Shown here piece after piece: positions 35,639 through 48,437 of a DNA stretch of 64,000 nucleotides (position 1 is the stretch's first letter; the number at the start of each line of letters is the position of its first letter). This stretch comes from Sphaerochaeta pleomorpha str. Grapes (GTDB taxonomy: Bacteria; Spirochaetota; Spirochaetia; Sphaerochaetales; Sphaerochaetaceae): assembly GCF_000236685.1 (NCBI RefSeq), contig NC_016633.1, forward strand, positions 124,001 to 188,000, given 5' to 3'. The position numbers and the translations under genes were made by a program. Below the pieces are notes generated by a model. The model made no database searches and was not told the DNA's origin. It worked only from the letters and a program-made list of their open reading frames with translations.

Positions 35639-36280
35639 TTATTGCATTTGGAAAGATGTTCTCATAGAAAGAATATCTTCTACCAGTATTTCTTTTGCAT
35701 TCTCAAGCGATTTTGACTTTATTGTCTCAATTAAACGTGCATGTTGTGATGCATCTGAAAGTTTCTGCTTATCCCAGGTAGTGTTAAAATAACGATACGC
35801 CCCCCTAGAGCAATAATTGAGATTTTGCTCTAGGGCTTTGTCCAGTAATGTGTTGTTTGCAAAACTGCATAGAAGCAAATGAAAACCCATATTCATTTTC
35901 CAATGTTTATCAACTTCATGGTCATATGTTATGGATTGTGAATGGATCACATTTTCTTCGAGTCGCTGAATATGCCGCTCGTCAAGTTTATAAAAACAAT
36001 GTTCAAGTGCTCCTAATTCAAGGATGCAACGCACTTCCAATCCTTCTTCCAATTGGCGTGGAGTAATTTGGGTGATCTGATAACCACACCTTGGGATGCT
36101 TTGTAACATCTCTTCCGAGCATAGTTGTACCAAAGCTTCCCTGATTGGTGCTTTGCTCACCCCATATTTTTCCATAAGTGAGCGTTCCGTCAGAATTTGA
36201 TTTGCGGGATATTTCCCTGTCAATATCTCATGATATTCCTGGTTGTGGATTCGTTCTTTCAGAGATTGTTTTTCTTCCAT
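35639..36280 (-). CDS. GntR-family transcriptional regulator (FCD-type)
   Basis: N-terminal winged helix-turn-helix (LTGKYPANQILTERSLMEK then YGVSKAPIREALVQLCSEEM, residues 20-58), followed by an all-helical C-terminal domain of the FadR/FCD kind (LEVRCILELGALEH). It is fifth in its operon, between permease and desulfidase genes. A perfect palindrome overlapping the operon promoter (40453-40471) is a good candidate operator. Confidence 0.87.
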   Translation of the reverse strand: MEEKQSLKERIHNQEYHEILTGKYPANQILTERSLMEKYGVSKAPIREALVQLCSEEMLQSIPRCGYQITQITPRQLEEGLEVRCILELGALEHCFYKLDERHIQRLEENVIHSQSITYDHEVDKHWKMNMGFHLLLCSFANNTLLDKALEQNLNYCSRGAYRYFNTTWDKQKLSDASQHARLIETIKSKSLENAKEILVEDILSMRTSFQMQ

Positions 36281-36296
36281 GTTGCTTTTTTACGGT

Positions 36297-37136
36297 CTAG
36301 CCTTTTACAGCCCCTGCCGTTAATCCTTCTTTATGAAAATATTGTAAAACCAAATAGGCAAAGATAACAGGAATAATTACAATTGTTGTTCCTGCTAGGA
36401 TTACTTGCCAAGGGGTTGAAAGTCCGTCACTTACCGGTAAAAGTGAAATGGAGACCATAAGGGTATATTTTGATGTTTTCCTAAGAAATAGCAAGGGCCA
36501 GAAGAAATCATTCCAACGTGCCACTATGGTAAGTGATGCCCAGGAAGCCAAAGCCGGTTTGATGACAGGGATGATTATCTTATAGAAAATTCCAAAGTCT
36601 TTACATCCATCAATCTTGGAAGCCTCAATTAACTCATCTGGAACATTTACAATGTATTGTCGCATATAGAAAATTCCAACTGCTGTGGCAATCCTTGGGA
36701 TTACCAATGCCCAGAGACTATTTATTAGATGGAGTTTCTTCATGATGATAAATTGGGGTATTGCACCAACCTCCGGTGGAATTAGCATCGTTGCAATGAC
36801 AAAATAGAAGAGGAAATCTCTTCCGGGGAATTTGTATTTTGCAAAAGAAAATCCAGCAAGTGCACAGAAAAAAACCGTTGTAAGAGTACCCATCGTCGTA
36901 GTGAATACACTATTGAAAATATTGGAAGCAATAGGTATCTGTCTAAATAGCCTTAGGTAATTGTCAAATGTTGGATGGTAAACCCGAATTGAATTGAGTC
37001 CACTAATACTTTCTGAGATGTCTTTAATGGAAATCAGACACATCCAGAATATGGGAAAAATGCTTATGAGGACAATGATAGATAAAATAAGATACACTAA
37101 GAATTGACCTGTTATTTGCTTGGTATGATTTTTCAT
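36297..37136 (-). CDS. Carbohydrate-type ABC transporter permease (MalG-like)
   Basis: 279 residues, about six helices. The coupling loop EASKIDGCKDFGIFYKIIIPVIKPA is described by its ends: EASKIDGC near residue 170 and IIPVIKPA 16 residues later. AGGAG lies before the ATG. It pairs with the MalF-like permease 18 bases upstream. Confidence 0.92.
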   Translation of the reverse strand: MKNHTKQITGQFLVYLILSIIVLISIFPIFWMCLISIKDISESISGLNSIRVYHPTFDNYLRLFRQIPIASNIFNSVFTTTMGTLTTVFFCALAGFSFAKYKFPGRDFLFYFVIATMLIPPEVGAIPQFIIMKKLHLINSLWALVIPRIATAVGIFYMRQYIVNVPDELIEASKIDGCKDFGIFYKIIIPVIKPALASWASLTIVARWNDFFWPLLFLRKTSKYTLMVSISLLPVSDGLSTPWQVILAGTTIVIIPVIFAYLVLQYFHKEGLTAGAVKG

Positions 37137-37154
37137 TAGATATGACTCCTGTGA

Positions 37155-38024
37155 TTATATTTCGCCTTGCTTTTTTCGAACAGCAAACTGTATCAGCGAA
37201 ATACCCAGCAAAATAAGAATAAGTATGCATCCGATAGCGGCAGAATAGCCCATTTTGAAAATGGTAAAACCATTCTGATACATGTACTGGAACAGGGAGG
37301 TGTTTGAGGTACCGGGGCCGGGTAGGATAAATGGCTCATTGAATATTTTCCAACTATCCACTGTAAGGGTGATAAAACAGAAAAATAGGATATTGCCGAG
37401 GGATGGCAGGGTGATATAGAAGAACTGCCTGAATATCCCTGCGCCATCAACGCGTGCTGCCTCATAATAATCTTTGCTGATATTCAACAAACCTGAAATG
37501 ATAATCATGGTAAACCAAGGAGTATTTCTCCAGATATTCAGAATAATTACTGGGATTTTGCTCATGGAAGTGCTTGTAAGCCAGGGAAGTCTTCCGAAGC
37601 CCAAGGCAACAAATATTTCATTGACCAATCCCACATTCTCGTCAAAGAGCATGCGAAAAATCAAGCCCATCGCAATGCCTGCACATACATTGGGCAGGAA
37701 GGTAATGGTTTTAAAAAAGGATTTTGATTTTAAATTGGACGAAGTTAGTAGCATCCCAATTAAGATGCTCAAGGATAGGATGAAAAATACAGCAGTTACC
37801 CAGTATACAATAGTATTGAGAAAAGCTTCGATGAACATCTGGTCCTTTAGCATCATCAGATAATTTTCTAATCCAACAACTGTAGGTTTTCCAATTCCAT
37901 TCCATTCAGTGAAACTGATAGCTATTGTCCAAATGGTAGGAATCAACTGAAACACTAAAAAAAGAATAAAGAACGGCAGAATAAACAAGTAGGGATATTT
38001 GTAGGTTTTTAAAGTCTTAAGCAT
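37155..38024 (-). CDS. Carbohydrate-type ABC transporter permease (MalF-like)
   Basis: 289 residues, six helices, with coupling loop EAARVDGAGIFRQFF near residue 190. The start at 38024 (MLKTLKTYKY) is chosen for the GAGG eight bases upstream; the frame is open five codons further. No ATPase gene is in this operon, as is common when a shared MsmK-type ATPase serves several importers. Confidence 0.92.
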   Translation of the reverse strand: MLKTLKTYKYPYLFILPFFILFLVFQLIPTIWTIAISFTEWNGIGKPTVVGLENYLMMLKDQMFIEAFLNTIVYWVTAVFFILSLSILIGMLLTSSNLKSKSFFKTITFLPNVCAGIAMGLIFRMLFDENVGLVNEIFVALGFGRLPWLTSTSMSKIPVIILNIWRNTPWFTMIIISGLLNISKDYYEAARVDGAGIFRQFFYITLPSLGNILFFCFITLTVDSWKIFNEPFILPGPGTSNTSLFQYMYQNGFTIFKMGYSAAIGCILILILLGISLIQFAVRKKQGEI

Positions 38025-38048
38025 ATTGATCCTCGCCAAATGGATATA

Positions 38049-38078
38049 GTTCCACCTGTTTTGAAAAACAGGTGGAAC
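38049..38078 (-). promoter_or_regulatory. Perfect intercistronic hairpin between binding protein and permease
   Basis: GTTCCACCTGTTT (38049-38061) and its complement (38066-38078) form a 13-bp stem with a 4-base loop. The placement matches the hairpin in the iron-type operon. It would favour high binding-protein expression over permease. Confidence 0.75.
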
Positions 38079-38090
38079 CTTTCTAAAGAA

Positions 38091-39446
38091 TTATTCGATT
38101 GTGGTTTTACCGATTCTTGCCTTGAGATTTTTATCTATATTGGCAATAGTAGCTTGCATTGTCTGGTTTCCTGCAACATATTTCTCAATTTCAACACTGA
38201 TGATAGTGTCAGCTTCAGCATCCTTTGGTGTTACTATCAGGTTGGCACTGGAATTGGCAAGACCTTTTCCCTCCATTTCCCTGAAACTTTGGCCACCATA
38301 GAATTCGCTGCTTTCTTTCCAGAATGGATCTTCTAGCATTTCAAGAGAAATTGGATTTGCATATGGTGCATTTTGTTCCACCATTGCATTTACCCACGCT
38401 TTCCTTGGTTCATTATCAAATTGAAAATCTTTCCACAATTTTTCTACCAAGGTAGTGTACTTACCATTAGGCTTATTGATTATTGCAAAATAGGATGCAA
38501 CCGGGGCTCCTGCCGTCCCAATTTCAGCAAAAACAGGAGCAGGCATTACACGCCATTGGCCTGAAGTTTCCGAAACATTTTTCCGGAGGAATTCATCCCA
38601 GAAAGCACCGATGTAAAAGGTTGCAACTTTGTTTTCTCTGATTGCATCATAGAGGGCAGGTTGCATTATAGCGCTTTTCAGTAATAAACCTTCACTATAA
38701 AGGGTATCCAGGGTATTAAGAGCCAGTTTTACACCAGGGTCAGAGCCGAATACGACATCTCCGTTTTCACCCCAGATCCTTGCATTGGCTTGTGGCATAA
38801 GACCCCTTCTTCCCCAGTATCTCCAAGTTCTGCTACCCGGATCAATGTAGGAAAGATAGACCAATCCATTGCTTTTTTCTTTCAGCTGTCTTCCGGCTTC
38901 AATATAGCCTTCCATGGTGCTCATCATTGCAGGGTCAACACCATACTTGTCAAAAATTTCCTGATTGAAGAAAAGCACCTGAGGTCTGACTGATTCTGGT
39001 AAAGCGAAAATTTTATCTTTGTAGATTGCGTCACCTGACGCACCATCGACCATTTGATCTTTTAATGAATTGGCCAACGCGGTTTCGTCTTTTACGATGC
39101 CACCTGCAGCGAGATCCTTGAGGTTGACCGGATCGATATACAGGGCATCCGGAAGGTCATCGTAGACACCAGCTAGATATGTCATGGTGACTTTCTCCCG
39201 AGAATCTGCCGCTCCCTGGGTCTGGACAATTTCAATCTTTACTTCTGGTGCAATGTCACGATTCCTTTCGAGCCATGCATCATAGTATTGCTGGAGGTAT
39301 TGAGGTTGCCCATATCCATAGATAACCACAGTGCCTGCTGGATAGACTGTACCTGTTGATGATACAGTAGCCTCCTTTGCTCCCCCGGCATACGCCGACA
39401 ACATTACCATGCTCAGAAAAATCACAATAGTTGCTTTTTTCATCAT
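38091..39446 (-). CDS. ABC transporter extracellular substrate-binding protein (sugar type)
   Basis: About 451 residues from ATG 39446 (tandem ATGs; GAGGAA upstream). The signal peptide (MKKATIVIFLSMVMLSAYA) is followed by GGAKEAT. The fold is that of family-1 solute-binding proteins: VVIYGYGQPQYLQQYYDAWLER (first 11 and next 11 residues of the first strand-helix unit), DLPDALYIDPVNLKDLAAGG and KLWKDFQFDNEPRKAW. The ligand is unknown; family-1 ligands include sugars, glycosides and polyols. Confidence 0.87.
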   Translation of the reverse strand: MMKKATIVIFLSMVMLSAYAGGAKEATVSSTGTVYPAGTVVIYGYGQPQYLQQYYDAWLERNRDIAPEVKIEIVQTQGAADSREKVTMTYLAGVYDDLPDALYIDPVNLKDLAAGGIVKDETALANSLKDQMVDGASGDAIYKDKIFALPESVRPQVLFFNQEIFDKYGVDPAMMSTMEGYIEAGRQLKEKSNGLVYLSYIDPGSRTWRYWGRRGLMPQANARIWGENGDVVFGSDPGVKLALNTLDTLYSEGLLLKSAIMQPALYDAIRENKVATFYIGAFWDEFLRKNVSETSGQWRVMPAPVFAEIGTAGAPVASYFAIINKPNGKYTTLVEKLWKDFQFDNEPRKAWVNAMVEQNAPYANPISLEMLEDPFWKESSEFYGGQSFREMEGKGLANSSANLIVTPKDAEADTIISVEIEKYVAGNQTMQATIANIDKNLKARIGKTTIE

Positions 39447-39472
39447 ACGTAGTTTCCTCTTTTTGTACATAT

Positions 39473-40432
39473 TTATCGAGTAGCCATTACAGCTTGCTTG
39501 ATTCTTTGATAGGGAATTTCGGTTGGAAGCGTGCAATCAGCCCCAAGGATGAATTTTTTCTTTCCGAATTCATTGAGTATTTTGGCGACCGAACTCTTCA
39601 GGTCCTCTTCAGAGGAGCCGACTAGGGCTCCTGTCCTGTTTGCGAGTCCTCCCATTATAGTAGCCTCTGGAAAAAGTTCTCGTCCTTTGCTGAGAGGAAA
39701 ATCTGTTTCATAAACGCCCCAGTTGGCAACATCAATCAGACTTCCATAGGAAGCATATCGATCCATAGCAAGGTTTTCCTTGCACATATGGAGAAAATTC
39801 TTACCCCCATTGTTTTTGCATACTGACAGAATTTGTTTGTCAAAAGGTGCTATGGCCATTGCAAACTCCTCGTCTGTCATGAAATGCTTTTCTGCCCCTA
39901 ATGCAGCATAGTAAATGCCATCGACACCAGCCTTGATAATCTGTTCGGTAAGCAGACACATTGCATCGGTAATTCTCTTGCAGGCATCTAAAAATGGTGT
40001 TGGATTTTCTCTCAGGTGAGCAACATGCAGTTCTCTCGTTGGTATATAGCCGTACCGGGATTCAATTGGATGAATACTTGAAGCGCATACCCCATGGATT
40101 GTCCCCAGCGTAAACGTATTTTCAGGATTCTTGTCAAGGATTTGCTTTACAAAATCGACCTGATCACTCAGAAAGGCATCTTTCATAGAATAGGATGGGA
40201 TTTTTTTCCAGTCATTTGGAGTTTTAATATCGCCGACATCTGGAATAAGATTCTCGTTCATGATTTTCATTATGTCTACTTCGGTTTCCCGATAAAAATC
40301 AAGGTGGGCTTTTACCCCCGGTTTTCCTTTTGCAACTGCTTTTGGAAAATGGAGTGAAAAGCTAGCCGGTACAAAATCGACATCTTTTCCATCTATCGAA
40401 GCTAACACCCGTTCTCTTTTATTCATGATCAA
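39473..40432 (-). CDS. UroD-superfamily protein with zinc methyltransferase motif
   Basis: TIM-barrel protein of 319 residues. It carries H215-x-C217 (NFLHMCKEN) and C300 (ILGADCTLPTEIP), the H-x-C-x(n)-C zinc-ligand pattern of MtaA/MtbA/MtgA-type enzymes that move methyl groups between corrinoid proteins and thiols or tetrahydrofolate. The N-terminal RQAGRY-like segment of true uroporphyrinogen decarboxylase is absent and there are no haem genes nearby. First gene of the operon. No corrinoid protein gene is seen in the window, so the methyl donor is unknown. MNKRER at 40426 is an alternative start. Confidence 0.8.
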   Translation of the reverse strand: MIMNKRERVLASIDGKDVDFVPASFSLHFPKAVAKGKPGVKAHLDFYRETEVDIMKIMNENLIPDVGDIKTPNDWKKIPSYSMKDAFLSDQVDFVKQILDKNPENTFTLGTIHGVCASSIHPIESRYGYIPTRELHVAHLRENPTPFLDACKRITDAMCLLTEQIIKAGVDGIYYAALGAEKHFMTDEEFAMAIAPFDKQILSVCKNNGGKNFLHMCKENLAMDRYASYGSLIDVANWGVYETDFPLSKGRELFPEATIMGGLANRTGALVGSSEEDLKSSVAKILNEFGKKKFILGADCTLPTEIPYQRIKQAVMATR

Positions 40433-41114: not shown

Positions 41115-42695
41115 TTATTCGGCGCCTTTAGGCAAGACGAAATGCAAGGACTCTGATAGGAGTGTCTGCATTTTCGTAGGTGCCGAATAGAGAATTCTTG
41201 AGGATTCCGGCAAAGAAACCCTAAAATATGAGTCCATCGCGTCTAGAACATCATGAAAAGATGCAAAAGAGGCAAGGCGATCATCTTTCTGTATGGATAG
41301 ATCAAGATTTGACGAAAGAATTAATGCAAGGAATTGGATAAAAAGACGAACGGAGAATATTTGGGGGTCGTTAATCTGCAGAAGCTTGCAATCGATTTCA
41401 TTTTTCAAATTTTCAAAATGATTCTCAAGTTGGTTCCTTCTGCCAAATTGATCCAAGACCGTTTTGGAATCATCCTCGCAATTTGTTTGTATAGCCCAGA
41501 AACCAGCATTTGAAAGGAAGAAAAGGTGCTTTGGGTCAACTTTTCTGGCAACCTTTCTTGACCCTCCAGGATTTTTACGTAGTTCGAAATACCGGTCGTA
41601 GAGTTGGCTGTGTTCCTCGAAAAGATTGTTGTCAATTAATTCTGTCTGACAGTTTGCAAGCAGTCCTTCCAGGTTTCTTTCCTGCTCCTTCCTCCAGAAA
41701 GGATCAAAGAAAACATGGATAGTGCTTTGCTTATCATCTGAGGGGTATGCAGTATAGCGAATGGTTTCCACACGGTGGTCGAAAAAGGGTTCTGTGGTGT
41801 CAAGCTGCTTTCTAAAATCCTCGATCAGGCGATTTTGCCAAGAAATCCTGGAAGGGATCCCTATCATGAAATCAAATCCATGTTCCATAAGCAGCGCAAT
41901 GCTGGTTTGGGTATATAAAATACGATTAAGGACAAGCGAGCATGGAACATGCCTGTAAGCACCTACCTTGGAAAGAACAGTCTCTGCGTCTTGAGCAATC
42001 CGGAGGTTTCCCGCTAATGGAAGATAGGTAAGGGGGATTCCTGATTTTTTATCGCAGGCTATTGCAAGGTGTATCTGTTCAAGCGCATCGCGATCCCTAT
42101 TGTTGCCGTAATAGAGGAAGGGGTTGTGCCTGCTGTAGGATGCTGCGCTTGTAATGACATAGATATACTGCTGCGATATCTGCATGGTTTTAACCCAATT
42201 CTCGAAAAATCGCTCCAGGGAAGCCCTTTCGATGGATGCAAGAAATTCGACAATTTGGCCTGGCTGTGAAAGCTCAGTCCCAATCCCGTGGTGGTCGAGC
42301 CATTTTCCGGCTTTGCCCAATGGCTCAGTTTCACAGGTGCAATAATAAGCCAAGGCAAGGAGTTTTCGTGCGTTTGCGTTGCCGAAGGAAGTCTTTAGGA
42401 CTTTTTCGAGTTTCAGGCTTTTTGCCATATGATCCAATACAAGAATCTGTCCTATTGGGTGTATGGCAAACGTAGGTTCTTCTTGGACCGGTGACTTTTT
42501 CGCTTTGGATGCCATGTATTTTTCATTGAACACCTGCTTGCCGGTTTTTGTGTCGATCTTACCGATGCACACTCGTTTGTGTCTGGTCTGTTGTTTTTCA
42601 AAATTCCAATAAAACTGGTCATGATAGAGATAGGTAACCCCATTTTTTTTGTTTTTCACTGGTATTATCCGGGGTTTTGAAAATATTTTTTCCAT
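41115..42695 (-). CDS. IS4/IS1634-type transposase-like protein, apparently lacking catalytic aspartates
   Basis: 526 residues from MEKIFSKPRI (42695). The N-terminus (KNGVTYLYHDQFYWNFEK, QTRHKRVCIGKID) and central fold match a large IS4/IS1634-type transposase group. At the first catalytic position, usually Y-D-T/I-T-S, it reads YVITSAASYS (Val codon GTC, 42156-42158). At the second, usually D-R-G-F-Y, it reads LVLNRILYT (Asn codon AAT, 41925-41927). The glutamate is kept (QLENHFENLKNEID). The frame is intact. No terminal inverted repeats or target duplication were found by eye. It may be a recently inactivated or domesticated copy. Confidence 0.8.
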   Translation of the reverse strand: MEKIFSKPRIIPVKNKKNGVTYLYHDQFYWNFEKQQTRHKRVCIGKIDTKTGKQVFNEKYMASKAKKSPVQEEPTFAIHPIGQILVLDHMAKSLKLEKVLKTSFGNANARKLLALAYYCTCETEPLGKAGKWLDHHGIGTELSQPGQIVEFLASIERASLERFFENWVKTMQISQQYIYVITSAASYSRHNPFLYYGNNRDRDALEQIHLAIACDKKSGIPLTYLPLAGNLRIAQDAETVLSKVGAYRHVPCSLVLNRILYTQTSIALLMEHGFDFMIGIPSRISWQNRLIEDFRKQLDTTEPFFDHRVETIRYTAYPSDDKQSTIHVFFDPFWRKEQERNLEGLLANCQTELIDNNLFEEHSQLYDRYFELRKNPGGSRKVARKVDPKHLFFLSNAGFWAIQTNCEDDSKTVLDQFGRRNQLENHFENLKNEIDCKLLQINDPQIFSVRLFIQFLALILSSNLDLSIQKDDRLASFASFHDVLDAMDSYFRVSLPESSRILYSAPTKMQTLLSESLHFVLPKGAE

Positions 42696-42699
42696 GTTA

Positions 42700-42880
42700 T
42701 AAATTGTAACAAAAAAACAGGGTAAATGCAATATTAATATTATATATTATAAAATGATAAATAAAAATTATGTAGTATTTCAAAATTTAATTAAAAAGAA
42801 ATAATTCCTTATAAGAAATAGAAAAAAGAAAAATAACTTGTAATATAATTATATATAATGTTACAATGATAGAAACCTAC
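42700..42880. other. Very AT-rich intergenic block
   Basis: About 180 bases dominated by A and T between the divergent transposase-like and amino-acid binding-protein genes. It contains several TATAAT-like strings (for example 42854-42859) but no convincing -35. It could hold divergent promoters, a bent-DNA site or the remnant of an insertion edge. Confidence 0.5.
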
Positions 42881-42897
42881 ACATGAAAGGAGTATTC

Positions 42898-43683
42898 GTG
42901 AAAATCACAAAAAAACTGGGATTTGTATTGGTGACTGTCGTTTTGCTAGGGTTTTTTTCTAATTCCTTGGTCTTCGCAAATGGAACAAAGGAGTCGCCCG
43001 CTACTATAGCATTTGCTGGTTCCGGGGGGTATCCACCGTTTAATTATATGACCGACGAGGGAAGCGTCATCGGTTTTGATGTGGATGTTGCCAAGGAAAT
43101 TGCAAAGAGGCTTGGCAAGGAAATGGAATATAAGACTACAGCCTGGGATGGCATTATCGAGGGGCTTCGAGCCAAGCGTTACGATGCAATCCTGGGAAGT
43201 ATGGGAATTACAGAAGCTAGGGAGAAAGTCGTAGATTTTTCCATTCCCTATTATTACAGCGGCCCGCAGCTGATAGTCAGGCGTGACAGCACAATAAAGG
43301 GAGTTTCCGATTTGAAAGCTACCTCTCGTGTAGGGCTGGTTACAGGGACTACCTTTGAAGAGGATGCTGCAAAACTTGGGGTAGTGACAAAACTCTATGA
43401 AGATGACAATCAGACCTTGATGGAATTGATCAACGGACGGCTAGACGGGGTTTTGACTGACAGGATCGTTGGATTGAATGCAATAGGAAAACTTCAAGGT
43501 GGAGAACAGCTCATGCTGGTAGGTTCTGTACTCAGGTCAGAGAAAATGGGTATTGCCTTCCATGATGGTGATGATGCGCTACGCACGCAGGTGAATGCCA
43601 TTTTGGTCCAGATGCAAGAAGATGGGACTCTGGCAACTATCAGTGCAAAATGGTTCGGTGGGGAAGATATTACCCATGAGTAA
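42898..43683 (+). CDS. Polar amino acid ABC transporter substrate-binding protein
   Basis: Family-3 periplasmic binding protein. The GTG at 42898 is preferred because AAAGGAG lies 5 bases before it; the ATG at 42883 overlaps that ribosome site. The signal peptide ends VFA, followed by NGTKES. The domain motifs are GYPPFNYMTDEGSVIGFDVDV, given here as GYPPFNYM and GFDVDVAKEIAKRLG, then WDGIIEGLRAKRYDAI and MGITEAREKVVDFS. First gene of a three-gene importer. The exact amino acid is unknown. Confidence 0.9.
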   Translation: MKITKKLGFVLVTVVLLGFFSNSLVFANGTKESPATIAFAGSGGYPPFNYMTDEGSVIGFDVDVAKEIAKRLGKEMEYKTTAWDGIIEGLRAKRYDAILGSMGITEAREKVVDFSIPYYYSGPQLIVRRDSTIKGVSDLKATSRVGLVTGTTFEEDAAKLGVVTKLYEDDNQTLMELINGRLDGVLTDRIVGLNAIGKLQGGEQLMLVGSVLRSEKMGIAFHDGDDALRTQVNAILVQMQEDGTLATISAKWFGGEDITHE

Positions 43684-43698
43684 AAAGGACGTAGACCG

Positions 43699-44367
43699 AT
43701 GAGTATTTTCCCCTGGGACCTGAGCATTGTCCCCCAAAAATTCTTTTTGTTCTGGGAGGCTGCCTCCTACACGTTGGAGATAACTTTCTTTGGTGTGTTG
43801 TTTGGCCTCCTTATCGGTCTGCTGGTTGCCCTCGGGCGACTGTCAAAAAACAAAGCACTTTCATCCGTGTGCAGATCCTATATCTTCTTGATACGGGGAA
43901 CCCCTTTACTGGTTCAATTGTTCATCATCTATTATGGATTGACCTCGCTGGTCACCATTGCCCCGATTCCTTCGGCAATCATAGCGTTGGCCATCCATAA
44001 TGGAGCATACATAGGGGAGATTTTCCGTGGTGCTATCCAATCGATCCACTATGGGCAGCTAGAGGCTGCAAAGAGCATCGGAATGACACATATGAAGGCA
44101 ATGGAAAGGATTGTACTTCCCCAGGCGTTCAAACGTGCTGTCCCTTCGCTAGGGAACCAGTTGATCATCGCTCTCAAGGATAGTTCTCTGGCCTCTACGA
44201 TAGCGGTTCCGGAATTGATGCTCAAAGGAAGGCAGATGGGTTCCTCGACGTTTATGTACATGGAAATGTTTATAATCGTTGGAATCTGGTATTTGCTCAT
44301 GACCAGCGTATTGTCGTTTGTCATGCATAAAATTGAGATGAAATTGAAGGTGAGTGACCGTGGCTGA
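43699..44367 (+). CDS. Amino acid ABC transporter permease
   Basis: 222 residues with about five helices (HisM/GlnP type). The coupling loop is [35 protein letters not shown] and [16 protein letters not shown] are typical of the family. AAAGGACG precedes the ATG. Partner of the binding protein and ATPase on either side. Confidence 0.93.
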
Positions 44368-45145
44368 GAAAATACAAAACAAAACGGACCCGGTAACAGG
44401 GAAAACCAATGAACCGATTCTCCGTATTGAAAACCTAAGCAAGAAGTATGGCGAGCTCCTTGTACTCAAAAATCTTTCGCTTTCCGTGCAAAAGGGTGAG
44501 GTGGTAGTAATCATCGGTGCCTCAGGAAGTGGAAAAAGTACCTTGCTTAGATGTGTGAACTTTCTTGAGAAGACCAAAAAGGGTAAAATCTATCTGGAAG
44601 GGAAATTGATCCGAAACCAGGAGAAACAGCTCACGCGATATCGGCAGGAACTGGGGATGGTCTTCCAGCATTTCAATCTGTTTCCGCATATGACTGTTGC
44701 CAGAAATGTAATGGAAGGCTTGGTGCAGGTAAAGAAGATGCCTAAGGATGAAGCCAGGTTGGAAGCTGAAAAACTACTGGACAGGGTAGGCCTGCTGGAC
44801 AAAGCCGATGTATACCCTGCAATGCTTTCAGGCGGGCAGAAGCAAAGGGTGGCAATTGCAAGGGCTTTGGCCATGAAACCCAAAATAATGCTGTTTGATG
44901 AGCCAACCAGTGCGCTTGACCCCGAATTGGTAGGGGAAGTGCTTTCTGTAATGACCCAGCTGGCAAAGGAGGGCATGACTATGCTCGTCGTTACCCATGA
45001 AATGTGGTTTGCCAGTGAGGTAGCAGATAGGGTCATCTTCATGGATGGTGGAATTATTGTAGAAGAAGCTCCCCCAAAAGAGATGTTCTCAGCGCCCAAG
45101 GAAGAGCGGACCCAAGAATTTCTCAGCCAAATTTTGCATAGGTAG
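44360..45145 (+). CDS. Amino acid ABC transporter ATP-binding protein
   Basis: It has Walker [10 protein letters not shown], the signature LSGGQKQR, Walker [12 protein letters not shown] and the switch VVTHEM. The preferred start is GTG 44360, nine bases after AAGG; an upstream GTG at 44354 is too close to that site. Both overlap the permease end. Typical GlnQ/HisP length, without a TOBE domain. Confidence 0.93.
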
Positions 45146-46444: not shown

Positions 46445-46821
46445 AACAGATAACCTCCAAGCTAAATGTAAATTAACGTTTTTCATGATATCACGTTCTT
46501 TAAAAATAAGTGGGAAAACTTTTACTAAATGGTTGTTTATGAAAATCCATGCCGAGGGCACCGCCGTTTTGGGGAAGGATCAATAGGAAAACCAAAACGG
46601 TAATCGGCTTGGCTTCCATTGCGTTGGCAAAGTAATTTTTTTAATAATAAGGTTTTCTCTATCGATAAAAAGAATTACCATATGCCTAGCTTGTTTCTGA
46701 AGTGCAAATGCTACGAAAGTGAGGTAGAATTGGGGGAAGAATTCTTTCTTGTCGGCAAAGGTATGTAGGGGGGGTATATCTTTGGTATCTGAGAATTAGC
46801 AATACATTGGAGGCTATCTAC
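46445..46821. other. Intergenic region between divergent diguanylate cyclase and binding-protein genes
   Basis: 377 bases without a gene. It contains the inverted repeat CCGTTTTGG / CCAAAACGG (46564-46572, 46592-46600; 19-base loop) and a T-rich stretch near 46637. No known riboswitch consensus was recognised; the cyclic-di-GMP-I motif in particular was not found. Confidence 0.5.
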
Positions 46822-47646
46822 ATGAAAAATAATTGGTTGTTCGCCTTGGTCCTTCTCGCTATCGCTCTATTTGTATCAGGATGTTCAAAGACTGAAACGA
46901 AGGGGGCTGCAGGTGCTCTTCCTTTGGTGGTTGGGATGGAATTGGCATACCCTCCCTTTGAAACGAAAAATGCCCAGGATGAGCCGTCTGGGGTAAGTGT
47001 AGACTTGGCCAAAGATCTTGGCGCTTATCTGAATCGTCCAGTGACAATTGTAAATACAAACTGGGACGGCCTTATTCCTTCTCTGCAGACTGGGAAAGTC
47101 GATGTAGTGATTTCTTCCATGACCATTACAGAGCAAAGGGCAGAGGTTGTTGATTTTTCCAATCCTTATGCCCATTCCTACCTTGCCTTGCTGGTAAATA
47201 AAGAAGCAAACATAACCTCAGTGGATGACTTGAATAAAGAAGGTGTTGTCGTTGATGTGAAAAAAGGAACTACCGGATATGTATATGCAAAGAAATACCT
47301 TACCAATGCCCAGGTAAATGCCCTTTCCTCAGAGAATGCCTGTGTGACTGAAGTAGTTCAAGGTAGGTCTGATGCTTTTATCTATGACCAGTTGACCATC
47401 TATAGACAAAACCAGGCAAACCCAAAGGTTACCGATGCAATTCTGATTCCGTTCCAGGATAGTGAGAATTGGGGAATGGCGGTAAAAAAAGGGAATACAA
47501 CCCTGCTCAATTCAATTAATGCCTTTATCGAGGATTATCGAAAGAACGGGGGTTTTGAAAAACTCACTGAAAAATATCTTGCAGAAGAAAAAAAGACCTT
47601 TGATGCCTTGGATTTCCCTTGGTTCTTCACCATGGAGGATAAATGA
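46822..47646 (+). CDS. Amino acid ABC transporter substrate-binding lipoprotein
   Basis: Family-3 binding protein with lipobox VSGC (cysteine at residue 21), so it is membrane-anchored, unlike the first amino-acid binding protein. The start at 46822 is set by GGAGG nine bases upstream. Motifs: GMELAYPPFETKN, GVSVDLAKDLGAYL, WDGLIPSLQTGKVDVVISSM and TEQRAEVVDFSNPY. The permease ATG overlaps its stop by four bases. Confidence 0.9.
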   Translation: MKNNWLFALVLLAIALFVSGCSKTETKGAAGALPLVVGMELAYPPFETKNAQDEPSGVSVDLAKDLGAYLNRPVTIVNTNWDGLIPSLQTGKVDVVISSMTITEQRAEVVDFSNPYAHSYLALLVNKEANITSVDDLNKEGVVVDVKKGTTGYVYAKKYLTNAQVNALSSENACVTEVVQGRSDAFIYDQLTIYRQNQANPKVTDAILIPFQDSENWGMAVKKGNTTLLNSINAFIEDYRKNGGFEKLTEKYLAEEKKTFDALDFPWFFTMEDK

Positions 47647-48437
47647 ACAAAGGTTCATCTGAGGGGCCTTCCAATCTGAACAAGGTGTTGAGTTTGGCGA
47701 TAGTGTGCTTGATCCTCGTCGGTTTTGTCTGGTTATCTGTCAGGGCCATTAACCTGCAATTGGATTTTTCCACTTTGCTTGTGTACCGCCAACGGTTAAA
47801 GCAAGGTTTTCTCATGACCATACTCATCTCATTGGGGAGTTTGGTTTTCAGTCTGCTCATTGGCTCGATTACTGCACTAGGCCAGAAATCAACCCTTTTG
47901 GTATTCCAATACCTTTGCAAGGCGTATGTACAATTGATCAGGGGCACACCTCTTCTGGTGCAGATATACTTCTTTTATTATATTATTGGTTCAGCCTGGG
48001 GTTGGGATAACCGGCTTTTGTCAGGAATAACCATTCTTTCCTTGTTTGAAGGGGCCTATATCTCGGAAATAATTAGGGGTGGCTTGGAAAGTATCGACCC
48101 ACAGCAATATGAAATTGCCAAATCCATTGGACTTACAACAGCGAAAACCTATCGCCTCATCACTTTTCCTATTCTCATGGCAAGGATTCTGCCAGCCTTG
48201 GCAGGACAGTTTGCCTCGATTATCAAGGATTCTTCCTTGCTTTCGGTTATAGCTGTTATTGAACTGACCCAGTCAATACAAGAAATATCGGCCGATAATT
48301 TCAGGATGTTCGAGAATTACCTGTTTGCCGGTTTCCTCTATTTTTTGCTAACCTTCAGCGTTTCGATGCTTTCAAGGATGTTCGAAAGGAGGTACAAGCA
48401 TGAGAATGGAACTGAACAGCATAAGCAAGAGCTTTAA
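47643..48437 (+). CDS. Amino acid ABC transporter permease
   Basis: 264 residues, about five helices. Coupling loop EIAKSIGLTTAKTYRLITFP; also [17 protein letters not shown]. The C-terminal tail is long and its last 38 bases overlap the ATPase gene, implying translational coupling. Confidence 0.92.
   Translation: MNKGSSEGPSNLNKVLSLAIVCLILVGFVWLSVRAINLQLDFSTLLVYRQRLKQGFLMTILISLGSLVFSLLIGSITALGQKSTLLVFQYLCKAYVQLIRGTPLLVQIYFFYYIIGSAWGWDNRLLSGITILSLFEGAYISEIIRGGLESIDPQQYEIAKSIGLTTAKTYRLITFPILMARILPALAGQFASIIKDSSLLSVIAVIELTQSIQEISADNFRMFENYLFAGFLYFLLTFSVSMLSRMFERRYKHENGTEQHKQEL

Follow-up and report, generated by a model that had tools for sequence, protein, structure and literature searches.

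A 64,000-nucleotide stretch of Sphaerochaeta pleomorpha str. Grapes (contig NC_016633.1, positions 124,001 to 188,000; hereafter the window) carries, at 41115-42695, a gene related to the transposases of the IS1634 family of insertion sequences (IS), and the comparative sequence evidence makes the domestication of this gene close to certain. Its product is probably a catalytically dead Asp-Asp-Glu (DDE) transposase that has retained the self-regulatory DNA binding of the parent IS and now controls both its own expression and a divergent amino-acid ABC transporter operon. Somewhat less firmly, we lean towards a bacterial transcription factor derived from a DDE transposase, for which a palindrome of terminal-repeat half-sites in the transposase's own promoter would have been a ready-made operator.

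The gene is read on the minus strand from an ATG at 42695 to a stop codon ending at 41115, with 526 unbroken codons. The original prediction had described an intact frame with Val (GTC) and Asn (AAT) at the first two DDE positions, each one base from an Asp codon, and with the Glu kept, and the open reading frame (ORF) check, the codon reading and an alignment bore this out. In the alignment with IS1634-type transposases, the triad columns contained D, D and E in 21 of the 21 relatives, so the catalytic columns are correctly placed, and no intact Asp stood at either of the first two columns in the window protein. The NCBIfam IS1634 profile (NF033559) matched the protein with an E value of 1.9e-36 (126.1 bits, cut-off 100), and no Pfam family exceeded its cut-off (DDE_Tnp_1_4, 12.7 bits vs a cut-off of 34.7). 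The AlphaFold2 (AF2) model, with a mean predicted local distance difference test score (pLDDT) of 84.2, aligned with Tn5 transposase (1muh) over 328 residues (Z score 16.1, root-mean-square deviation 5.5) and with the Tn5 inhibitor (1b7e) at a Z score of 13.0. Val180 lies within a strand of the model, Asn257 just past a strand and Glu424 within a helix; strand, after a strand and helix are the usual places of the DDE triad in a Tn5-like fold. The gene is the sole full-length match to itself in its own genome (3.59 Mb, one contig). Two other IS1634-type fragments (L032 and L033, with frames of 291 and 131 codons) gave partial profile matches there, and no active copy, identical or other, was found in that genome.

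Relatives were examined in 26 genomes of the genus within a set of 139 family genomes, and a class search covered 394 genomes. Some IS1634-type match was present in 23 of the 26 genus genomes, and these matches fell into two groups, one of DDE-intact IS elements, often with several per genome, and one with a single member per genome. Full-length relatives numbered 17, from 16 of the 26 genus genomes and one genome of another genus (G116); an 18th (G007) was interrupted by a contig end and stands outside the 17. When an alignment model of the one-copy group was run against the 139 family genomes, 17 genomes scored at least 663 bits, and the other matches listed scored 406 bits or less. The 17 members formed one clade with a branch support of 100/100 against the 21 DDE-intact transposases. 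Each of the 17 genomes held one member, adjoining the transporter every time, and there was no multi-copy or varied-place sign of mobility. The second Asp was lost in all 17 (Asn in 16, Gly in G116), the first in two (Val in the window, Ile in G116), and the catalytic Glu was present throughout. No clade member outside the family appeared among the matches listed (down to E 1e-85) for the 394 class genomes. A scan of contigs with alignment A1 gave 20 loci, with none for the window protein alone as query; records with relatives include Sphaerochaeta halotolerans 4-11, Sphaerochaeta sp. S2 and several Sphaerochaeta or Spirochaetales metagenome bins. The 62 pattern matches in viral contigs included no relative, and the three plasmid records that matched, at 26% identity, were all annotated as IS1634 transposases.

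Selection on the gene was measured as the ratio of nonsynonymous to synonymous substitution rates (dN/dS) by the Nei-Gojobori method, with pairs of saturated dS or dS below 0.02 dropped. The values among orthologues, 0.046-0.18, indicate purifying selection. The median was 0.066 (0.046-0.089) over 21 pairs of a first subgroup, where dS often approached or exceeded 1, and 0.1285 (0.111-0.18) over 8 of 10 pairs of a second. The corresponding medians for the substrate-binding protein (SBP) of the transporter were 0.059 and 0.1065, so the constraint on the gene roughly equals that on its neighbour; permease and ATPase gave 0.02. The original prediction had left two readings side by side, a very recent loss of function or retention of the protein for a different role, such as DNA binding. 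The second is supported by a one-copy, syntenic clade without the second Asp and under purifying selection. The first, an ordinary IS recently inactivated and heading for decay, was rejected, and we give it almost no credence: both lost codons lie a single base away from Asp and the IS1634 profile match persists, as such a reading would have it, but the loss of the second Asp is common to the orthologues of a single 17-member clade with dN/dS of 0.05-0.18 and conserved synteny, and the genome's other IS1634 remnants are indeed broken.

The gene stands head-to-head with the SBP gene of the same transporter in 18 of 18 loci (G007 included), followed by the permease and ATPase genes wherever the contig was long enough and the ORF families picked them up. 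Beyond this block, the neighbours belong to several different sets among the 18 loci. An SBP orthologue (66-71% identity) accompanied the gene in all 17 of the 26 genus genomes that have it (G007 included), and the other nine lacked one at that threshold, six of these nine being less than 90% complete. The chance of such an agreement is 3.2e-7 as a bare count that is uncorrected for relatedness. The trees of SBP and dead transposase (17 taxa) had 12 of 14 splits in common, weakly supported splits included. One common split joins the window's genome (G000) and G116 (90/93 in the SBP tree), and it is possible, depending on the root, that the first Asp was lost once in their common ancestor; this fork is open in the larger protein tree. 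The intergenic lengths of 63-245 bases follow the ORF rule, and several SBP starts were clearly placed too far upstream or downstream.

Conservation within the domesticated clade was highest in the N-terminal domain. For eight domesticated sequences, hand-picked for spread over the tree, the mean pairwise identity was 0.62 in residues 1-62 vs 0.40 in the catalytic stretch, and for eight IS sequences picked in the same way it was 0.41 vs 0.45. This distribution bears on a different account, in which the protein does enzymatic or structural work that has nothing to do with the transporter (processing of DNA ends by the first Asp and the Glu, for instance) and the linkage reflects a hitchhiking transferable cassette. 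The retention of these two residues in 15 of 17 members agrees with it, and the differing outer neighbourhoods would fit a block that is transferred whole. We nevertheless regard it as improbable, given that the first Asp is also missing in the window and in G116, that conservation peaks in the N-terminal domain rather than in the catalytic core, and that a palindrome at the start codon is conserved.

The ends expected of an IS were not found. Related elements have the ends CTCAAATTCCC or CCCAAATTCCC, facing inward, and pairs of these motifs occurred without mismatch in 10 of 12 IS loci; L024 had one mismatch at one end, and in L025 one end was found. No inward-facing pair lay within 1.5 kb of the 17 domesticated genes. 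Matches to the 12-base outer part of the terminal repeat (at most 2 mismatches) numbered three in the whole window, which is below chance, and none was near the gene, in keeping with the original prediction, in which no terminal repeats were noticed by eye.

The palindrome at the start codon (CATGTTATAAATTGTAACAAA in the window) has been retained. It was found in 17 of 17 loci, with 7 to 10 of 10 pairs, and it resembles a symmetric -10 element too. The 19-mer ATGTTATAATTTATAGCAT occurred exactly once per genome in 13 of the 26 genus genomes, each time at the start codon of this gene. The alignment of the main subclade showed a 22-base invariant block at the palindrome in 12 of 12 sequences, the longest such intergenic block. 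A near-start 21-mer with at least 8 of 10 palindromic pairs was present in 7 of 10 domesticated genes vs 1 of the 123 other genes that these loci hold, the lone exception being the SBP gene opposite the domesticated gene in G018. Some 75 bases further on (+73), another half-site was found in 13 of 13 main-subclade genomes. Searched in its own genome with zero mismatch, the window palindrome matched the start-codon site alone; with two mismatches, on both strands, there were 5 matches vs 7 for a backward control, so these counts are uninformative. The G116 orthologue (L056), which has lost both Asp in its own way (Ile and Gly), has a perfect 21-base palindrome, CATGTTATAAATTATAACATG.

A palindrome of this kind could serve just as a symmetric, bidirectional promoter of the extended -10 type without being bound by this protein, which might still be domesticated. 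On general knowledge of promoters, TGTTATAA and TGCTATAAA are similar to an extended -10 on both strands, and there is no obvious ribosome-binding site, so that the gene may be leaderless. This explanation has a real but minor chance of being right: the 22 identical bases in all 12 main-subclade sequences exceed what a -10 needs, comparable palindromes are scarce at other gene starts within the loci, and the palindrome covaries with the terminal repeat in IS1634 elements of other phyla.

The last point came from the IS1634 elements themselves, where the inner part of the left terminal repeat reappears as an inverted pair at the promoter or start codon of the transposase. Terminal repeat and promoter palindrome covary between elements, with TGTAGCATG accompanied by TGCTACAATATGTAGCA in L039 and ATAGTTA by AGCTAACTATAATTATAGTTAGCT in L087, and the same covariation was seen in the later-added plasmid elements of Carnobacterium and Aliarcobacter (L144, L145). 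A palindrome built from the element's own terminal-repeat inner half was observed in the promoter zones of L005, L028, L030, L036-L039, L087, L118, L120, L125, L144 and L145, which come from several phyla.

The match between terminal repeat and promoter was scored for 16 elements with chosen sites, namely 13 of the 27 listed IS loci together with L125, L144 and L145, the terminal-repeat start being set by eye. Eight loci were omitted as near-copies (L011, L012, L019, L025, L073, L080, L117 and L119) and six because inspection by eye showed no terminal repeat or the contig did not extend far enough (L018, L079, L086, L121, L122 and L123). The own promoter matched at 9.75 of 11 positions vs 8.52 for foreign promoters, a difference reached in 0 of 100,000 permutations. 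Without choice of site, in a test of 19 elements at the upstream end that took in L018, L079 and L122, the scores were 9.74 vs 8.91 (0 of 100,000). The downstream (right) ends of the 19 elements gave a weaker result (904 of 100,000; L037 has only 2 downstream bases). Removal of four related elements from the chosen-site test gave 2 of 100,000 permutations, as did a 14-element version, in which a foreign promoter beat the own one at least once for 6 of the 14 elements. Base composition within an element may help its own pairing a little. Since the terminal-repeat half-sites recur in the promoter palindrome and covary with it, the results suggest that the IS1634 transposase binds its own promoter; the palindrome looks like a family-wide autoregulation site, and we infer that the domesticated gene inherited it.

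A remnant in a metagenome bin of Spirochaetia (L125:5866-6230) is a decayed IS1634 element that has lost its coding part and keeps the palindrome and a left terminal-repeat-like stretch. Over residues 1-55 of the window protein the identity is 54%. The terminal-repeat-like stretch contains TTGTAACATGG, and the start-codon palindrome, CATGTTATAATTTGTAACATG, is nearly that of the domesticated clade.

The similarity of IS half-sites to the palindrome could also be read as the mark of a trans-acting inhibitor, in which the dead transposase would act on active IS1634 relatives through terminal-repeat binding or mixed multimers, like the Tn5 inhibitor. The fold match to 1b7e and the active-looking IS1634 copies in several clade genomes are in line with such a function. 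It would leave the 18 of 18 transporter linkage and the joint presence and absence of the two genes unexplained, however, and the window's genome has no other intact IS1634 element, only fragments. The half-site also differs, ending in TTATAACAT vs TTATAACTAGG in the commonest resident IS of the genus, and we think an inhibitor quite unlikely.

Several observations weigh against a palindrome-binding regulator. The N-terminal domain showed no clear match to a DNA-binding fold (best Z score 4.9, Borrelia Pur-alpha); two Pfam matches to its 62 residues were weak and below cut-off, and Foldseek gave none at E <= 0.001 with the domain model. The window's own palindrome is imperfect, at 7 of 10 pairs. 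The +73 half-site is missing in G016 and G116, and the sole further half-site of the window, ATGTTACAA by the transporter start, was reached by 10 of 200 shuffles and overlaps the presumed transporter -10. The conservation of the palindrome may be due in part to promoter function at a leaderless start, because the extended -10-like motif is found on both strands. A residual role of the active site is also conceivable in 15 of 17 members, because these retain the first Asp and the Glu.

With these points taken into account, domestication as a regulator is the explanation we prefer, and the following course of events would account for it. In an ancestor belonging to the same spirochaete family as Sphaerochaeta, an IS1634-type element would have arrived beside the operon of an amino-acid ABC transporter, and would then have lost its terminal repeats and the second catalytic Asp, with the transposase retained as a host protein. 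If IS1634 transposases bind an own-promoter palindrome in which the inner half of the terminal repeat occurs twice, and so regulate themselves, the dead protein could have kept this binding and set its own expression by it. By occupying the short divergent intergenic region it would also repress or otherwise adjust the transporter operon, presumably assisted in the main subclade by the further half-site. Since the site covers both the start codon and the -10-like sequence, repression would be the simplest guess; activation is also conceivable. Loss of the ends and of catalytic Asp alone would in this way have turned a head-to-head IS into a transporter regulator.

Table 1. Positions in the window of the domesticated gene, its catalytic codons, the candidate regulatory sites and the divergent operon.
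Feature	Position	Strand	Basis
Domesticated, catalytically dead IS1634-type transposase gene, 526 aa	41115..42695	-	Profile, alignment, tree, AF2 model
Codon 424, catalytic Glu, GAG, retained	41424..41426	-	Alignment and codon reading
Codon 257, second catalytic position, AAT (Asn for Asp)	41925..41927	-	Alignment and codon reading
Codon 180, first catalytic position, GTC (Val for Asp)	42156..42158	-	Alignment and codon reading
N-terminal domain, residues 1-62, three strands and a helix, most conserved part in the domesticated clade	42510..42695	-	Identity comparison, AF2 model
Palindrome at start codon, 7/10 pairs, candidate operator and/or symmetric promoter	42693..42713	.	Conservation, palindrome counts
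Candidate transporter promoter, TTGTAA-18-TACAAT with preceding TG	42838..42867	+	Sequence motif; overlaps half-site match at 42858-42866
Amino-acid ABC transporter SBP, conserved divergent neighbour	42883..43683	+	Locus comparison, profiles
Amino-acid ABC transporter permease	43699..44367	+	Locus comparison, profiles
Amino-acid ABC transporter ATP-binding protein	44354..45145	+	Locus comparison, profiles

The operon profile is that of a polar amino-acid ABC transporter, and the substrate-specific models (best: lysine/arginine/ornithine, cystine and glutamine) all remained under their own cut-offs. The stretch holding the candidate transporter promoter contained three promoter-like matches vs 3.2 expected by chance. 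A second polar amino-acid ABC transporter (SBP and permease) is located at 46807-48437, about 2 kb past the first, and these two genes have no family member in the loci of the relatives. On the other side, at 35639-40432, lies an ABC transporter operon of the sugar type, with genes for a GntR/FCD-like regulator and a protein resembling uroporphyrinogen decarboxylase, all named from the sequence by eye.

Among the papers listed in searches of a largely non-subscription, open-access literature, no bacterial DDE transposase turned regulator appeared; beside TnpA-REP and the TnpB-like nuclease-dead repressors (TldR), the papers listed were eukaryotic or unrelated. Transposase-derived transcription factors are a well-known eukaryotic theme, which the nuclease-dead TnpB repressors extended to RNA-guided proteins of bacteria. 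The sequences compared set several stages side by side, from the intact IS through loss of the second and of the first Asp to a retained palindrome and a constant partner operon. Regulators of this kind risk being filtered out as mobile-element debris, because annotation would name them IS1634 transposases (NF033559 matches all 16 members of A1 at E <= 0.001). If our interpretation is true, the same pre-adaptation would be expected in IS1634 elements across phyla.

With the IS1634-family transposases (NF033559) the window protein shares full-length homology, a profile score above cut-off, the Tn5-like fold, the N-terminal domain and the promoter palindrome, and it differs from them in lacking the second and the first Asp and the terminal repeats, and in its single copy and fixed transporter neighbour. 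The Tn5 transposase inhibitor (1b7e) has the same fold and is likewise a transposase protein that does not transpose, but it is an N-terminally shortened product of an active element and not a host-fixed gene beside a transporter. TnpA-REP (RAYT) differs from the window protein in being an HUH-type enzyme with catalysis retained and in its linkage to REP sequences. It is called the first prokaryotic domesticated transposase (PMC8266576), and the likeness lies in a transposase relative maintained by bacterial hosts. The closing comparison is with TldR, described as dead transposon nucleases of the RNA-guided RuvC type turned regulators (PMC13418256). The likeness extends to the loss of catalytic residues, the retention of DNA binding (probable for the window protein) and the linkage to a non-transposon gene, whereas the window protein is a DDE transposase by its IS1634/Tn5 profile and fold and would bind a fixed palindrome.
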